Assembly: GCF_003201595.1 (NCBI RefSeq)
Contig: NZ_QJJS01000003.1
Span: 291,075 to 355,074, forward strand
Reading direction: 5' to 3'
Length of the DNA stretch: 64,000 nt
DNA from: Sphaerotilus hippei
GTDB lineage: Bacteria; Pseudomonadota; Gammaproteobacteria; Burkholderiales; Burkholderiaceae_C
Each line of letters opens with the position of its first letter. The first letter of the stretch is position 1. A program made the translations under genes and the position numbers. This document shows, in pieces, positions 14,567-21,164 of this stretch. A model generated the notes under the pieces. The model searched no databases. It was not told where the DNA came from and saw only the letters and a list, made by a program, of their open reading frames with translations.

Positions 14567-14621
14567 AGCCTTGGCCGAGACCACCAGAACACGTGCGTCG
14601 CCGGCTGGCCCAGGGAGTTTC

Positions 14622-17108
14622 ATGGACAAACGCCGCCTCAGCGAGAGCGACATCTGCGACAAGTTCATCCGCCCGGCCATGGAGCGCGCGGGCTGGAACG
14701 GCATGGACCAGATTTACCGGGAGTACCCGCTGCGTGCCGGGCGCGTGGTGGTGCGGGGCCGCAAGGCCAAACGCGATATTTCCACCGTGCTGCGCGCCGA
14801 CTACGCGCTGTTCCACAAGCTCAACATTCCGCTGGCGGTGGTGGAGGCCAAGGACAACAACCACGCGGTCGGCGCCGGCATGGCGCAGGCGATCAACTAC
14901 GCGCAACTGCTCGACGTGCCGTTCAGCTTTGCCAGCAACGGCGACGGTTTCATCTTCCGCGACGCCACGCTGGCCGACGGCGTGCTGGAGCGCGTTCTCA
15001 CGCTCGATCAGTTCCCGTCGCCGGCCGAACTGTGGGCCAAGTACTGCGCCTGGAAAGGCTGGACACCCGAGGTGCGCAAGGTCGCCGAGTTCGACTACGC
15101 ACCCGCCAAGACGCCGCGCTACTACCAGCTCAACGCCATCAACCGCACGGTCGAGGCGATTGCCCAAGGGCGCCAGCGCGCGCTGCTGGTCATGGCCACC
15201 GGCACCGGCAAGACCTACACCGCCTTCCAGATCATCTGGCGCTTGTGGAAGAGCGGCGCCAAGAAACGCATCCTGTTCCTGGCAGACCGCAACATCCTGA
15301 TCGACCAGACCATGGTCAACGATTTCCGCCCCTTCAAGGGCGCGATGGCCAAGCTGAGCGCCAATGCAAAAGGCGTCGAACGCGTCGACGCGCAGGGCCA
15401 GGTCACGGTCGAGGACGTCACGCTCGCCGTCAACAAGACCACCAAGCAGGTCGACAAGAGCTACGAGATCTACCTGTCGCTGTACCAGGCGGTCACCGGA
15501 ACTAACGACGAGAGCAACATCTACAAGCAGTTCTCGCCCGACTTCTTCGACCTCATCATCGTCGACGAATGCCACCGCGGCAGCGCGGCCGAAGACTCGT
15601 CGTGGCGCGAGATCCTGAGCTATTTCAGCAGTGCCACCCAGGTCGGCCTGACCGCCACGCCCAAGGAAACCGAAGCCGTTTCCAACAGCGACTACTTCGG
15701 CGAACCGATCTACACCTACAGCCTCAGGCAGGGCATCGAAGACGGCTACCTCGCGCCCTACAAGGTGGTACGCATCGACCTCGACCGCGACACCTTCGGC
15801 TGGCGCCCGACCGAGGGCATGACCGACAAGCTCGGCAACGTCATCGAAGACCGCATCTACACCGGCGCCGACATGAACCGCCGCCTGGTGCTGGAGCGCC
15901 GCGACGAGGTGGTGGCGGCCAAGATCACCGAATACCTCAAGGCCACCGACCGCCACGCCAAGACCATCGTCTTCTGCGAGGACATCGACCACGCTGCCCG
16001 CATGCGCTCGGCCCTGAGTAATGCCAACGCCGACATCTGCCAGACCCAGCCACGTTACGTGGTGCAGATCACCGGCGACAACCCCGAAGGCAAGCGCGAA
16101 CTCGACAACTTCATCGATCCTGACAAGCCTTACCCGGTCATCGCCACCACCTCCAAGCTGATGAGCACCGGCGTCGATGCGCAGACCTGCAAGCTCATCG
16201 TGCTGGACCAGAACATCAAGTCGATGACGCTGTTCAAGCAGATCATCGGCCGAGGCACCCGGCTGCGCGAGGACCTGGACAAGACCTGGTTCACCATCCT
16301 CGACTTCAAGCGGGCCACCGAGCTGTTCGCGGACAAGGACTTCGACGGCGAGCCGGTGCAGGTCTACGAACCGAAAGGGGATGAGCCGGTGGAGCCGCCC
16401 GAGCCGGTGGCGCCTGTCGGTCCGGACGGCCAGCCCGTCGAGGGCGAGACGCCGACCGGGGATGGCGCAGCGCCCGGCGATCTGCCGCAGCCCGGTCCGC
16501 TCGGCCCCTTCGGCGATGGCGACGGCGACGGCGGGCCGCGGAAGTACGTCATCGGCGGCACGGTGAACGTGTCCGTGGCGCGCGAGCGGGTGCAGTACCT
16601 GAACGCCGACGGCAAGCTCGTCACCGAGAGCCTGCGCGACTACACGCGCATCCACCTCGGCAAACGCTTCGACTCGCTCGACCAGTTCCTGCAGACGTGG
16701 AACAGCGCCGAGCGCAAGGCGGCGCTGCTGGCCGAACTCGAAGCGCAGGGCATCTTCTTCGACGCGCTGGCCGACGAGGTGGGCCGGGAGCTGGACCCCT
16801 TCGACCTGCTGCTGCACGTCGCCTACGGCCAGCCGCCATTGACGCGCCGGGAGCGGGCGCGGCGGGTGAAGCAGCGCAACGTCTTCACCGCGTACGGGCC
16901 AATGGCGCGCAAGGTGATGGACGCGCTGCTGGACAAGTACGCCGACGAGGGCATCGCCACCATCGAAGGCCAATCCGTGCTCAGCGTGCAGCCCTTCACC
17001 GCGCTCGGGCGGCCGGCCGAACTCATCAAGAGCTTCGGCGGTCGGCCGCAGTACCTGCAGGCGCTGAACACGCTGGAGCGCGAGCTGTACGCGCCCGCAC
17101 AATCCTGA
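14622..17108 (+). CDS. hsdR: Type I restriction enzyme, restriction/translocase subunit HsdR
   Basis: This 828-residue protein starts with ATG at 14622, which follows GGGAG with a 4-base gap; an upstream in-frame ATG at 14571 lacks this. The N-terminal nuclease core shows D60 and the E75-A-K77 pair of the PD-(D/E)XK fold. The SF2 motor follows with Walker A ATGTGKTYT near residue 192 and DECH near residue 315. An acidic Pro/Gly-rich linker (residues of about 585-640) joins a C-terminal domain that probably binds the methylase. The protein cleaves unmethylated DNA after ATP-driven translocation when assembled with HsdM and HsdS. hsdM starts 86 bp downstream. Confidence 0.95.
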   Translation: MDKRRLSESDICDKFIRPAMERAGWNGMDQIYREYPLRAGRVVVRGRKAKRDISTVLRADYALFHKLNIPLAVVEAKDNNHAVGAGMAQAINYAQLLDVPFSFASNGDGFIFRDATLADGVLERVLTLDQFPSPAELWAKYCAWKGWTPEVRKVAEFDYAPAKTPRYYQLNAINRTVEAIAQGRQRALLVMATGTGKTYTAFQIIWRLWKSGAKKRILFLADRNILIDQTMVNDFRPFKGAMAKLSANAKGVERVDAQGQVTVEDVTLAVNKTTKQVDKSYEIYLSLYQAVTGTNDESNIYKQFSPDFFDLIIVDECHRGSAAEDSSWREILSYFSSATQVGLTATPKETEAVSNSDYFGEPIYTYSLRQGIEDGYLAPYKVVRIDLDRDTFGWRPTEGMTDKLGNVIEDRIYTGADMNRRLVLERRDEVVAAKITEYLKATDRHAKTIVFCEDIDHAARMRSALSNANADICQTQPRYVVQITGDNPEGKRELDNFIDPDKPYPVIATTSKLMSTGVDAQTCKLIVLDQNIKSMTLFKQIIGRGTRLREDLDKTWFTILDFKRATELFADKDFDGEPVQVYEPKGDEPVEPPEPVAPVGPDGQPVEGETPTGDGAAPGDLPQPGPLGPFGDGDGDGGPRKYVIGGTVNVSVARERVQYLNADGKLVTESLRDYTRIHLGKRFDSLDQFLQTWNSAERKAALLAELEAQGIFFDALADEVGRELDPFDLLLHVAYGQPPLTRRERARRVKQRNVFTAYGPMARKVMDALLDKYADEGIATIEGQSVLSVQPFTALGRPAELIKSFGGRPQYLQALNTLERELYAPAQS

Positions 17109-17194: not shown

Positions 17195-18670
17195 ATGTCG
17201 AATCTCTCTGCAGTCATCAAATCCATCCAAGACGTCATGCGCCAGGACAGCGGCCTGGACGGCGACGCCCAGCGCATCTCGCAGCTCACCTGGCTGCTGT
17301 TCCTGAAGGTGTTCGACGCGCTCGAAGAAGAGCTGGAGCTGACCCGCGACGACTACCGCAGCCCGATCCCCGAGCGCATGCGCTGGCGGAACTGGGCGGC
17401 GGACGCCGAGGGGATCACGGGTGATGCGCTGTTGAGCTTCGTGGACAACGAGCTGTTCGTGACGCTGAAGAGCCTGAGCGCCGACCCGCAGCGCAACCCG
17501 CGTGGCTACGTGGTGCGCGGCGTGTTCGAGGATGCCTACAACTACATGAAGAGCGGGCAGTTGCTGCGGCAGGTGATCAACAAGCTCAACGCCATCGACT
17601 TCAACCGCCAGAGCGAGCGCCACCAGTTCAACGACCTGTACGAGAAGATCCTCAAGGACTTGCAGAGCGCGGGCAACGCGGGCGAGTTCTACACGCCGCG
17701 GGCGGTGACGCAGTTCATGGTGGACATGGTGGACCCGCGGCTGGGCGAGCGGGTGTTCGATCCGGCGACGGGCACGGGCGGCTTCCTCGTCTGCGCGATC
17801 GAGCACCTGCGGCGGCAGGTCCACAACACCGAGCAGGAGGCGGTGTTGCAGGCCAGCGTGCTGGGGGTGGAGAAGAAGCAGTTGCCGCACATGCTGTGCG
17901 TGACGAACCTGATGCTGCACGGGATCGAGGTGCCGAGTTCGGTCCGGCATGACAACACGCTGGCGCGTCCGCTGCGGGACTACGGGGCGGCGGACCGGGT
18001 GGATGTCGTGCTGACGAACCCGCCGTTCGGGGGCATCGAGGAGCCGGGGATCGAGCAGGGGTATCCGGCCGACGTGCGCACCAAGGAGACGGCGGACCTG
18101 TTCCTGGTGCTGATCCAGCATCTGCTGAAGCACAACGGGCGGGCGGCGCTGGTGCTGCCGGACGGGACGCTGTTCGGCGAGGGCGTGAAGTCGCGCATCA
18201 AGGAGCAACTGCTGACCGAGTGCAACCTGCACACCATCGTGCGGCTGCCGAACGGGGTGTTCGCGCCGTACACGGGGATCAAGACCAACCTGCTGTTCTT
18301 CACCAAGGGGGCGCCGACCCAGTCGATCTGGTACTACGAGCATCCCTATCCGGCGGGCGCGAAGAGCTACAACAAGACCAAGCCGATCCGGATCGAGGAG
18401 TTCGAGGCCGAGAAGGCGTGGTGGGGCAGCGAGGCGGACGGGTTCGCGGCGCGGGTGGAACACGAGCGGGCGTGGAAGGTGGACATCGCGGCGATCAAGG
18501 CGGCGGGCTGGAACCTCGACCAGAAGAACCCGCACGCGCCGGACGCGGTGAGCCATGACCCGGACCAGTTGCTGGCCGACTATGCGCGGCTGCAGGGCGA
18601 GGCGCAGGGGTTGCGGGATCGGCTCAAGGCGATCCTGGCGCAGTCGCTGGGAGGCGTGCAATGCGCATGA
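17195..18670 (+). CDS. hsdM: Type I DNA adenine methyltransferase HsdM
   Basis: This 491-residue protein has an N-terminal helical HsdM domain (residues 1-150) and an N6-adenine methylase core. Motif I reads FDPATGTGGFL near residue 187 and motif IV reads NPPFGG near residue 274. It methylates the target adenine to protect host DNA and forms the M2S core with HsdS. ATG 17195 matches the family start (MSNLSAVIKSIQDVMRQD). Its last 10 bases overlap the start of the DUF1016-type gene, so translation is likely coupled. Confidence 0.96.
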   Translation: MSNLSAVIKSIQDVMRQDSGLDGDAQRISQLTWLLFLKVFDALEEELELTRDDYRSPIPERMRWRNWAADAEGITGDALLSFVDNELFVTLKSLSADPQRNPRGYVVRGVFEDAYNYMKSGQLLRQVINKLNAIDFNRQSERHQFNDLYEKILKDLQSAGNAGEFYTPRAVTQFMVDMVDPRLGERVFDPATGTGGFLVCAIEHLRRQVHNTEQEAVLQASVLGVEKKQLPHMLCVTNLMLHGIEVPSSVRHDNTLARPLRDYGAADRVDVVLTNPPFGGIEEPGIEQGYPADVRTKETADLFLVLIQHLLKHNGRAALVLPDGTLFGEGVKSRIKEQLLTECNLHTIVRLPNGVFAPYTGIKTNLLFFTKGAPTQSIWYYEHPYPAGAKSYNKTKPIRIEEFEAEKAWWGSEADGFAARVEHERAWKVDIAAIKAAGWNLDQKNPHAPDAVSHDPDQLLADYARLQGEAQGLRDRLKAILAQSLGGVQCA

Positions 18671-19479
18671 ACAAAAAGAAAGCCACGGCGCCCGCGGACA
18701 AGACGGGCCTCGCCGCTGTCGAGGGCGATCCGGCGCAGGCACTCTACGCGCAAATCCAGGCGGTCCTGAGCCAGGCTCGGCAACAGGTGCGCCGCCAGAT
18801 CAACCAGGCCATGGTTCAGGCTTACTGGCAGGTCGGGCGCCTGATCGTGGAGCATGAACAGGCGGGGCAGTCGCGGGCCGCGTATGGCGAGCAGGTGCTG
18901 GCCCAATTGGCTGAACGGCTCTCGGCCGAGTTCGGCCCTGGGTTTGCCGTGCAGAGTCTGCGCAACTACCGCCAGCTCTATCTGACGCTGCCGGATGACG
19001 AGATTCGCTCCACGCCGTGGAGCGAATTGGGCTGGTCGCACCTGCGGGCGCTGATGCGCGTGGCCGATCCTGCCGCCCGGCAGTGGTACGCCCGCGAATC
19101 GGTCAGCCAGACCTGGAGCGTGGCGGCACTGAGCCGGCAGATCAGCACGCTGTACTACCAGCGCCTGCTGTCCAGCCAGGACCGTGCGGGTGTGGAGGCG
19201 GAAGCACAGGCGCTCATCCGCCGCGATGTCGGGCAGCTCGACATGTACGTGCGGGTATTCGACGAACGGGTGCGCCAGCCGGATGACCACCCGACCATCG
19301 GCCTGATCCTGTGCTCGGAGCGCAACGAGGCCGTGGCGCGCTATTCGCTGCTGGCCGAGGGTCGCCAGCTTTTTGCCAGCCGCTACCAGCCGTGGCTGCC
19401 CACGGAGGCGGAATTGCAGGCCGAACTGACCCGTGACCGTGCACGGATCGAACTCGCTCAACCGGAGGACCGGGCATGA
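18661..19479 (+). CDS. DUF1016/YhcG-type protein lacking its nuclease core
   Basis: This 272-residue protein is encoded between hsdM and hsdS. Residues 25-175 match the DUF1016 N-terminal domain (YWQVGRLIVEHEQAG, SLRNYRQLYLTLP). Residues 189-260 match only the final part of the C-terminal PD-(D/E)XK domain (GQLDMYVRVFDERVR, PTIGLILCSERNE, LFASRYQPWLPTEAEL). The roughly 100-residue middle that holds the catalytic FY-DLVFYN and VLIDLK motifs in relatives is absent, with the join near residues 177-189. The frame stays open, so this is an in-frame internal deletion, probably without nuclease activity. It overlaps hsdM by 10 bases and hsdS by 4, which keeps it in the operon. Confidence 0.8.
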   Translation: MRMNKKKATAPADKTGLAAVEGDPAQALYAQIQAVLSQARQQVRRQINQAMVQAYWQVGRLIVEHEQAGQSRAAYGEQVLAQLAERLSAEFGPGFAVQSLRNYRQLYLTLPDDEIRSTPWSELGWSHLRALMRVADPAARQWYARESVSQTWSVAALSRQISTLYYQRLLSSQDRAGVEAEAQALIRRDVGQLDMYVRVFDERVRQPDDHPTIGLILCSERNEAVARYSLLAEGRQLFASRYQPWLPTEAELQAELTRDRARIELAQPEDRA

Positions 19480-21164
19480 CGCCGTTGATCCCGCATTTCG
19501 ACCTGCTGGCCACCGCGCCCGGTGGCGTGGCGCGGCTGCGCGAGTTGATCCTGACGCTGGCGGTACAGGGCAAGCTGGTGCCGCAGGAGGCGGGGGATGA
19601 GCCGGCGAGTGTGTTGTTGCAGAGGATTCGGGCGGAGAAGGATCGGTTGATCGCTGCGGGGGAAATCAAGCGAGATAAGCCGATGGCTGAAATCTCTGAT
19701 GAGGAGTTGCCATTTGAAATTCCGACTGGCTGGACTTGGGCGCGCATACCTGCGCTGACATACAGCCTTGGACAAGGCGAGCCGAGCACTCCCTTTACGT
19801 ACATCGATGTAGCCGCGATCGAAAATATCAAGGGCGTGATCACGAATAATATTCAGGTCATACACCCTACGGACGCACCTTCTAGAGCCAGAAAGAATGT
19901 TGCTGTCGGCACAGTCTTGTACTCAACTATTCGCCCGTACCTCAAGAATATCGCCATCGTGGAGCAGGACTACCAACCCCGCCCGATTGCGAGCACTGCG
20001 TTCGCCACCATGCACCCGCATCAGGGCTTAATATCAAGGTATCTACTGACATATCTTAGAAGCAAGCCTTTCACAGATTTCGCAAATAGTAAATCTGTTG
20101 GCATTGCGTACCCCGCTATTAATGACGCAAATTTCTTTCAGGGTCTTATTGCACTTCCCCCAACTGCCGAACAATCCCGCATCGTCACCCGCGTCGAAGA
20201 ACTGATGCGCCTGTGCGATGCCCTCGAACAGCAGCGCCAGCTCGAAACCGCGCAGCACGTCAAACTGCTGAACACCCTGCTCGGCACGCTGACCGACTGC
20301 ACCTCGCCCGACGAACTCGCCGCGCACTGGCAGCGCGTCAGCGACCACTTCGACCTGCTGCTCGACCGCCCCGAAGCCGTGGACGCGCTGGAGCAAACCA
20401 TCCTGCAACTCGCCGTGCGCGGGCTGCTGGTGCCGCAAGACCCGGCGGACGAGCAGGCGAGTGTGTTGTTGCAGAGGATTCGGGCGGAGAAGGATCGGCT
20501 GATTGCGGCGGGGGAAATCAAGAGGGATAAGCCATTAACCGCAATTACGGATGAAGAAAAACCGTTTGCGCTGCAAGAGCCCTGGGCGTGGGTGCGGGTC
20601 GGTGACCTTGTAGAGATGTTGAATGGCTACGCATTCAAGAGCGAGTGGTTTAAAAATATCGGGACTCGGCTTTTACGAAATGTGAACATCAGTCATGGGC
20701 ACATAGACTGGTCGCAACCCGCGTTTGTCGATTCATCGACGGCAGATGCTTTTTCATCGTTTGCCCTCAAAGCAGGCGACATCGTGCTATCTCTTGATCG
20801 CCCCATAATTTCAACTGGCCTGAAATATGCGATCGTGAAAGCAAGTGATTTGCCATGTCTTCTTCTACAACGAGTTGCCAGGCTGTCCCCTTATGCGGCC
20901 GGCATGTCTGCTGATTTCTTTGTGCTTTGGCTGCAGTCAGATTTATTCATGCGGACAATTGATCCCGGACGCAGCAACGGTGTGCCACATATTTCAACAA
21001 AGCAGGTGGCGAATTTGGTGATTGGCTTGCCGCCACTCGCCGAACAAGCCCGCATCGTCGCCCGCGTCACCCAACTCCGCAGCCTCTGCGCCGACCTGCG
21101 TCAGCGCCTGTCAGCTCGCCAGAGCACGCAAAGTCGTCTGGGCGAGGCTCTGGTAGAGGTTTGA
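19476..21164 (+). CDS. hsdS: Type I restriction-modification specificity subunit HsdS
   Basis: This 562-residue protein has two target-recognition domains (residues of about 75-230 and 360-530). Each is followed by the conserved helix starting L-P-P-x-A-E-Q (LPPTAEQSRIV and LPPLAEQARIV). Each half is also preceded by the repeated segment ASVLLQRIRAEKDRLIAAGE. HsdS reads a bipartite DNA sequence, one half-site per domain. The DNA encoding both recognition domains is clearly richer in A/T than its surroundings, which suggests exchange with foreign alleles. The start ATGA overlaps the preceding stop. The target sequence cannot be predicted from the sequence alone. Confidence 0.95.
   Translation: MTPLIPHFDLLATAPGGVARLRELILTLAVQGKLVPQEAGDEPASVLLQRIRAEKDRLIAAGEIKRDKPMAEISDEELPFEIPTGWTWARIPALTYSLGQGEPSTPFTYIDVAAIENIKGVITNNIQVIHPTDAPSRARKNVAVGTVLYSTIRPYLKNIAIVEQDYQPRPIASTAFATMHPHQGLISRYLLTYLRSKPFTDFANSKSVGIAYPAINDANFFQGLIALPPTAEQSRIVTRVEELMRLCDALEQQRQLETAQHVKLLNTLLGTLTDCTSPDELAAHWQRVSDHFDLLLDRPEAVDALEQTILQLAVRGLLVPQDPADEQASVLLQRIRAEKDRLIAAGEIKRDKPLTAITDEEKPFALQEPWAWVRVGDLVEMLNGYAFKSEWFKNIGTRLLRNVNISHGHIDWSQPAFVDSSTADAFSSFALKAGDIVLSLDRPIISTGLKYAIVKASDLPCLLLQRVARLSPYAAGMSADFFVLWLQSDLFMRTIDPGRSNGVPHISTKQVANLVIGLPPLAEQARIVARVTQLRSLCADLRQRLSARQSTQSRLGEALVEV
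19605..19681 (+). repeat. hsdS internal direct repeat, copy 1
   Basis: This 77-bp segment matches 20457-20533 with five mismatches, and the first 42 bases are identical. It lies just before the first recognition domain. Confidence 0.92.
20457..20533 (+). repeat. hsdS internal direct repeat, copy 2
   Basis: This is the second copy of the 77-bp repeat, 852 bp after the first and just before the second recognition domain. Recombination between copies could delete or swap a recognition domain. Confidence 0.92.

Follow-up and report, generated by a model that had tools for sequence, protein, structure and literature searches.

Apparently independent in-frame losses of the predicted nuclease core from a DUF1016 gene in a Sphaerotilus type I restriction-modification operon

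Genes of the widespread DUF1016/YhcG nuclease family often adjoin restriction systems; to our knowledge no mechanism has been assigned to the family, which is catalogued only as a candidate for phage defence. The window analysed here, a stretch of 64,000 nucleotides from Sphaerotilus hippei, contains a type I restriction-modification operon in which a gene of this family lacks its nuclease core. Why, then, is the rest of the gene still there, in frame, between hsdM and hsdS? The first-pass annotation had offered two answers: either an adaptor without catalytic function is being selected, or an in-frame deletion happened recently. In its available text, PMC1189080 predicts YhcG to be a PD-(D/E)XK nuclease with the motif E-D-ExK and a helical N-terminal domain of about 200 residues whose role is left unassigned, and it mentions a Methanosarcina acetivorans homologue located in a type I cluster. 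The accessible part of PMC8649781 counts COG4804 among the restriction nucleases in Tn7 cargo. According to PMC2672614, loss of E. coli YhcG is synthetically lethal when combined with weak alleles of dnaB, dnaN and parE. We found no description of a core-deleted DUF1016 protein in the portions available of the literature searched, which included PMC1913061, PMC11341870, PMC10855318 and PMC8767337.

Profile matches show HsdR, HsdM and HsdS to be full length, and the operon is apparently an intact EcoAI-like type I system. HsdR matches the NCBIfam equivalog NF046051 over profile positions 1-768 of 768 with 1120 bits (cut-off 550); its start was taken as the first ATG, at 14622, the listed open reading frame opening at a TTG at 14571. 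The hsdS product matches the PADLOC model Specificity_I at 3.6e-161. The HsdR equivalog match, HsdM and the two-domain HsdS are likenesses to EcoAI/FtnUII-type systems, to which the window adds the DUF1016 gene between hsdM and hsdS. This frame is open from 18661 to 19479 on the forward strand (272 amino acids counted from 18661). We prefer the ATG at 18667 as its start (MNKKKAT...), because the orthologue from Sphaerotilus mobilis begins there (MNKKATPP...). With that start, both borders of the gene become 4-bp ATGA overlaps, and the intact reading frame and overlaps with hsdM and hsdS reported in the first-pass annotation hold. A GGAGG lies 7 bases upstream of the hsdS ATG, within the DUF1016 gene. 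The features of the operon are:

14622..17108, forward strand: hsdR, EcoAI/FtnUII-type restriction subunit (NCBIfam NF046051 equivalog)
17195..18670, forward strand: hsdM, N6-adenine methyltransferase subunit (Pfam N6_Mtase 2.1e-69, HsdM_N 2.9e-14)
18665..18670, forward strand: hsdM/DUF1016 overlap, GCATGA, read from the sequence
18667..19479, forward strand: core-deleted DUF1016/YhcG gene between hsdM and hsdS; alternative start 18661
18751..19164, forward strand: complete DUF1016_N domain (Pfam PF17761), residues 31-168 of the 272-aa frame
19222..19227, forward strand: deletion junction, codon R188 (CGC) joined to D189 (GAT), from codon alignments
19225..19479, forward strand: C-terminal remnant of YhcG_C (VGQLDMY ... 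LPTEAELQAEL ...), from Pfam and alignment
19464..19468, forward strand: GGAGG inside the end of the DUF1016 gene, by inspection the likely Shine-Dalgarno sequence of hsdS
19474..19479, forward strand: DUF1016/hsdS overlap, GCATGA, a hexamer identical to 18665-18670, read from the sequence
19476..21164, forward strand: hsdS, specificity subunit with an ATGA overlap with DUF1016 (Pfam Methylase_S, two stretches)

The same genome carries a second DUF1016 gene, on the reverse strand of contig C30 (L002). Its 400-aa open frame belongs to another subfamily, extends over the full length of the protein and retains both FYIDLLFYN and VAVELKIG.

The N-terminal domain of the window protein is complete (PF17761, profile 1-137 of 137, E 1.4e-42, 145.5 bits against a cut-off of 32.8), and YhcG_C is matched in its C-terminal part only (profile 60-156 of 157, 65 bits against 32.5), which is the division that the first-pass annotation had described. 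For comparison, seven full-length DUF1016 genes were found in the same operon elsewhere (L033, L034, L036, L037, L039, L048 and L198). The HsdM proteins of these operons are 67-87% identical to that of the window; in this comparison L037 seems to have a broken HsdR and L039 a partial one. Over common columns, the window protein is 70-75% identical to the orthologues L033, L034, L036, L037 and L039 and 88% identical to that of S. mobilis; thus, the frame is not a chance one. Aligned with the full-length proteins from the same operon, it shows a single in-frame gap of 94 residues (282 bp) at about 19224/19225, close to the roughly 100 residues estimated at first. The gap corresponds to residues 198-291 in L033 numbering and takes in the aligned catalytic residues D267 and E282-L-K284, together with a conserved helix containing E226 and E230. 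The catalytic D and the E-x-K of a PD-(D/E)XK enzyme are therefore both absent and, read as it stands, the window protein cannot be a PD-(D/E)XK nuclease. It resembles the YhcG/DUF1016 family (COG4804; PF17761 plus PF06250) in its complete DUF1016_N, its C-terminal tail and its orthologous slot in the hsd operon, but differs in lacking the 94 residues that hold the active site. No long repeat flanks the junction, and microhomology there, judged from relatives, amounts to 2-3 bases. In two of the full-length operons (L034 and L048) an extra open reading frame begins about 20 bases after DUF1016, ahead of hsdS, and at another locus a second, partial N-domain match (L041:7074-7313) lies just 3' of the full-length copy.

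The model of L033 has strands at 248-259, 262-272, 277-287 and 316-323. Mapped onto it, the window gap takes out the helices between 203 and 243, all three strands within 248-287 and the beginning of helix 290-306. The window sequence still contains the remainder of this helix, strand 316-323 and the helices at the C-terminus. The model of the window protein itself has a helical N-domain, in which most 10-residue blocks between 21 and 180 reach pLDDT 83-95 and one reaches 70, followed by a region without structure (204-248, blocks at pLDDT 36-58) and a retained helix at 249-266. It contains no strand of three or more residues, so that the core beta-sheet of the PD-(D/E)XK fold is missing. For full-length L033, no solved structure was found by sequence at E <= 0.1; Foldseek gave 2vld, a NucS/EndoMS-type nuclease, as its best match (E 1.0e-3, TM 0.22 on the query, weak support), with ParB below the NucS-type nucleases (E 0.065). 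A 26-residue match of the window protein to 8fje_A (E 7e-4) was taken as chance.

To ask whether the deletion is an oddity of one genome, we turned to its relatives, and that explanation was rejected. S. mobilis DSM 10617 (G007, NZ_SGWV01000010.1), whose HsdM is 94% identical to that of the window, has an orthologue in the same hsdM-hsdS slot (L004 1501-2406, 301 aa; the same gene in L032 and L197) that has also lost its core in frame. Its deletion is a different one: 66 codons, corresponding to L033 residues 258-323, with about 4 bases of microhomology (GCGC, judged from relatives). The S. mobilis protein keeps IRDPYVLEFL...FVARQRHL, in contrast to the window protein, and lacks the stretch from there to CSE. 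The two deletions overlap in 34 residues (L033 258-291), which contain D267 and E282-L-K284. To judge from these alignments, the core loss in S. mobilis is independent of that in the window. In a third congener (G009), hsdR and hsdM are 90% and 93% identical to those of the window, hsdM and hsdS overlap directly by ATGA (L191 6000-7469 and 7466-9202), and the genome contains no DUF1016 match at E <= 0.001. The fused hsdM/hsdS border of this species reads GCATGA, as do both borders of the window gene, so the gene may have been cleanly excised between short repeats. What appears to be new here is that one active site was lost in frame, independently, in two Sphaerotilus species, and that the gene was lost cleanly in a third. 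HsdS is only 48-49% identical between the window and each of the other two species, against 93-94% for HsdM, and target specificity has thus probably changed among the three.

These relatives also bear on the suspicion that assembly or sequencing has joined the two flanks of the core. The exact junction is known from one genome only, a draft in 46 contigs; however, it lies inside a 358-kb contig with the frame kept and no long repeat beside it, and the S. mobilis genome, deposited independently, lacks this core through a separate deletion. We regard an artefact as very improbable.

If the deletion is real, its remnant should reveal whether the protein still matters. Here we used NG86 values, YN00 values being unavailable for many pairs. 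Between the window and S. mobilis, the N-domain (163 codons) has dN 0.065 and dS 0.368, a ratio of 0.177, and the common C-tail (48 codons) a ratio of 0.015, or 0.066 by YN00. A full-length pair of similar distance, L036 and L037, gives 0.127 and 0.105 for the same two parts, and for the window and S. mobilis the ratios are 0.165 for HsdR (dS 0.42) and 0.063 for HsdM (dS 0.47). The DUF1016 gene, with a dS near those of HsdR and HsdM, thus seems to have diverged with its operon. In a three-species codon model, the window branch has an omega of 0.05, and an omega of 1 is rejected by 4.2 lnL units with L033 as outgroup and by 8.2 with L034. For S. mobilis the branch omega lies at 0.10-0.14, and an omega of 1 is not rejected (1.0 lnL units; at most 1.7-2.0 in a later test). 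Had the remnant evolved neutrally since the deletion, neutral evolution could account for at most about 15% (L033) or 5% (L034) of the window branch at 2 lnL units, whereas the same test sets no useful limit on the S. mobilis branch. Conservation of at least 90% across 48 other family members defines 90 columns. Of these, 57 are unchanged in the window protein, 29 fall in its gap and 4 differ, 2 of the latter (R187 and R188) being misaligned junction residues; the S. mobilis protein keeps 62, loses 28 and differs in none. Outside its deletion, the window protein thus appears free of decay. Of the two signs whose combination the first-pass annotation had named as counting against its proposal, one is present, as the exact deletion occurs in the window genome only, among the genomes searched, and the other, subsequent decay, is not seen outside the gap. 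Purifying selection and the kept conserved residues mean either that the deletion is recent or that the remnant is useful, and these data cannot choose between the two.

The second of these options is the adaptor proposed at first: a non-catalytic subunit or regulator, from which selection would have removed the nuclease and whose ParB/Noc-like N-domain would bind DNA or HsdMS and modulate restriction, for example as a brake or a targeting subunit. Purifying selection along the window branch and an N-domain that is modelled intact and well fit it as well as they fit a recent loss, and the N-domain ratio is like that of HsdR. When the window model was compared with VIA, the top 12 rows were all DNA-binding domains of ParB, Noc or Spo0J (Z 8.1-6.1, next row 5.1), and the text available of PMC2672614 reports that E. 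coli YhcG was found associated with HsdMRS and McrABC. However, helical models commonly reach a VIA Z of about 8, which makes the ParB likeness a lead, and the Pfam HTH_ParB profile scores the window protein at 14.9 bits, below its cut-off of 22.6. The selection measured also includes time before the deletion, neutrality is not rejected on the S. mobilis branch, and the congener G009 does without the gene. We consider a selected adaptor possible but rather doubtful.

To see how often such losses occur, we paired N-domain and C-tail profiles so as to find both ends of DUF1016 genes in 284 loci. This gave 199 pairs, in which L200 is counted twice (as L202); other overlaps were removed by sequence key, and a few duplicates may remain. 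Spacing was normal in one open frame in 175 pairs and normal with a frameshift or stop in 13; it was longer in 2, and in 9 rows, representing 8 distinct genes, the core was lost. Another 30 N-domain matches without a C-tail were left unclassed, although in 29 the locus continued for over 800 bases, and matches below the score or length limits were dropped. Six of the 8 core deletions are in frame: those of the window and S. mobilis, L200 (G608), L265 (G1329), L266 (G1257) and L281 (G154). The other two, L038 from Limnohabitans and L201 from a Thiodictyon plasmid, break the frame, and L201 is broken elsewhere too. If one deletion in three is expected in frame, six of eight has P = 0.020; several loci were fetched for a short frame or an unbroken match, however, which may bias the count towards in-frame cases, and 8 in about 198 is not a random sample. 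In a set of 80 loci drawn by peptide patterns from genome contigs, the core was lost in 2 (L032 and L038), one other (L049) was frame-broken and one (L092) was unclassed. Among the 80 plasmid matches listed (the best 40 for each of two queries), one is an orphan, H54/L201, that lacks the core and is interrupted at several points; 12 phage records have a match to the window protein.

Genes for hsd subunits adjoin 4 of the 8 core-deleted genes, and all four are in frame: the window, S. mobilis, L200 (in the order hsdR-hsdM-DUF1016-hsdS) and L266, where hsdM and hsdS are followed by what we read as a nucleotidyltransferase-like frame and then by DUF1016. No hsd match was found near the other four, L265 and L281 in frame and L038 and L201 frame-broken; the neighbourhood of L265 is bounded by its 5.8-kb contig. 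Thus, where the first-pass annotation had suggested looking for the same deletion in other hsd operons, it is the type of loss that recurs (S. mobilis, L200 and L266) and not the exact junction. A possible association between core deletion and hsd context was set aside, as too few cases bear on it. At loci of at least 9 kb with an N-to-C pair, those with hsd-like genes within 3 kb comprise 16 full-length and 1 core-deleted gene, and those where none were found comprise 36 full-length, 3 core-deleted and 4 with a frameshift or stop; this table omits the window, S. mobilis, L265 and L266, whose rows (L001, L004, L240 and L241) are short loci, and its tblastn search, made with few queries, misses distant hsd genes.

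We also asked whether core-deleted proteins form a clade with one common junction. No junction common to two species was found in the genus Sphaerotilus (13 genomes), the family of G608 (43 genomes), the genus of G154 (11 genomes) or the family of G1329 (74 genomes), and such a clade was rejected across all four; each of the other cases has a junction of its own. Several genes related to that of L265 in the G1329 family (in G1352, G1245, G1376 and G1253) are short or have interrupted reading frames, which looks like decay of this subfamily there. The different junctions, none found in two species, together with the loss of the gene in a congener, favour repeated recent loss over a long-maintained adaptor, and 2 of the 8 core deletions broke the frame, which also counts against an adaptor, although the recurrence of in-frame deletions counts for it. 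The alignment bears out an in-frame deletion, and of the two first proposals the pattern of losses leans towards the recent one.

The same survey bears on whether the window gene is simply a recent neutral pseudogene, in which a chance deletion happened to preserve the frame and selection acted neither on the loss nor on the frame. Chance alone leaves one deletion in three in frame, few genes in the genome-contig sample are core-deleted and each case is singular, and orphan copies with similar deletions and broken frames do exist (L038 and L201). On the other hand, two independent losses of one segment in one slot of one genus, alongside a clean absence, go beyond a single accident, and the in-frame excess, even with some search bias, points the same way. 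We judge neutral loss quite improbable.

The reading that we favour, and hold to be somewhat better than an even bet, is that an operon-borne nuclease has been disarmed repeatedly and probably recently, with the frame kept through translational coupling to hsdS. In this lineage the nuclease would have turned into a burden or ceased to be needed, perhaps with the divergence of HsdS specificities, and alleles without nuclease activity would then have spread. Since the start codon and the likely Shine-Dalgarno sequence of hsdS overlap the end of the DUF1016 gene, frame-shifting deletions would disturb the translation of hsdS; the deletions that survive inside the operon would be those in frame, or those that remove the gene cleanly, as in G009. 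What remains would be a helical N-terminal domain and a disordered tail, with nuclease activity gone. Several cases sit badly with hsdS coupling as the reason for frame keeping. In L266, the DUF1016 gene follows hsdS; L281, an orphan, is in frame without such coupling, and L265 is likewise in frame with no hsd genes seen nearby. The in-frame excess can also be read as selection for the protein. A bolder proposal would make nuclease-less DUF1016 proteins a convergent functional class, ParB-like DNA-binding adaptors that arise by recurrent in-frame core deletion and modulate HsdMRS in type I operons, perhaps as dead-nuclease regulators or competitors of active DUF1016 paralogues such as the intact copy on contig C30; we put this forward as unlikely.

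Annotation of this family may be affected as well. The window protein has as its best PADLOC model PDLC04820 (1.5e-144), a model of the phage-defence candidate PDC-S02, to which it is thereby likened. Full-length L033 aligns to this model with 355 residues against 319 model positions, which suggests that its seed is itself short of about 36 core columns. The 286-aa core-deleted protein of G154 (L281:5117-5977, reverse strand) matches PDLC04817 over positions 1-286 of 286 (605 bits), a fit so complete that this protein or a close relative may have served to build the model. PDLC04803 (269 positions) was considered as a further core-deleted family and rejected, since it begins late in the N-domain, the window N-part aligning to positions 5-89 from residue 90.

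PDLC04820 and PDLC04817 thus appear to include core-deleted members, so that a PDC-S02 call need not mean a nuclease. Within the genus Sphaerotilus, a single operon thus offers two natural in-frame deletions and one clean loss as a ready-made set of test alleles. The question they raise is whether the nuclease is a costly add-on that these operons shed, or whether the N-terminal domain has a job of its own.
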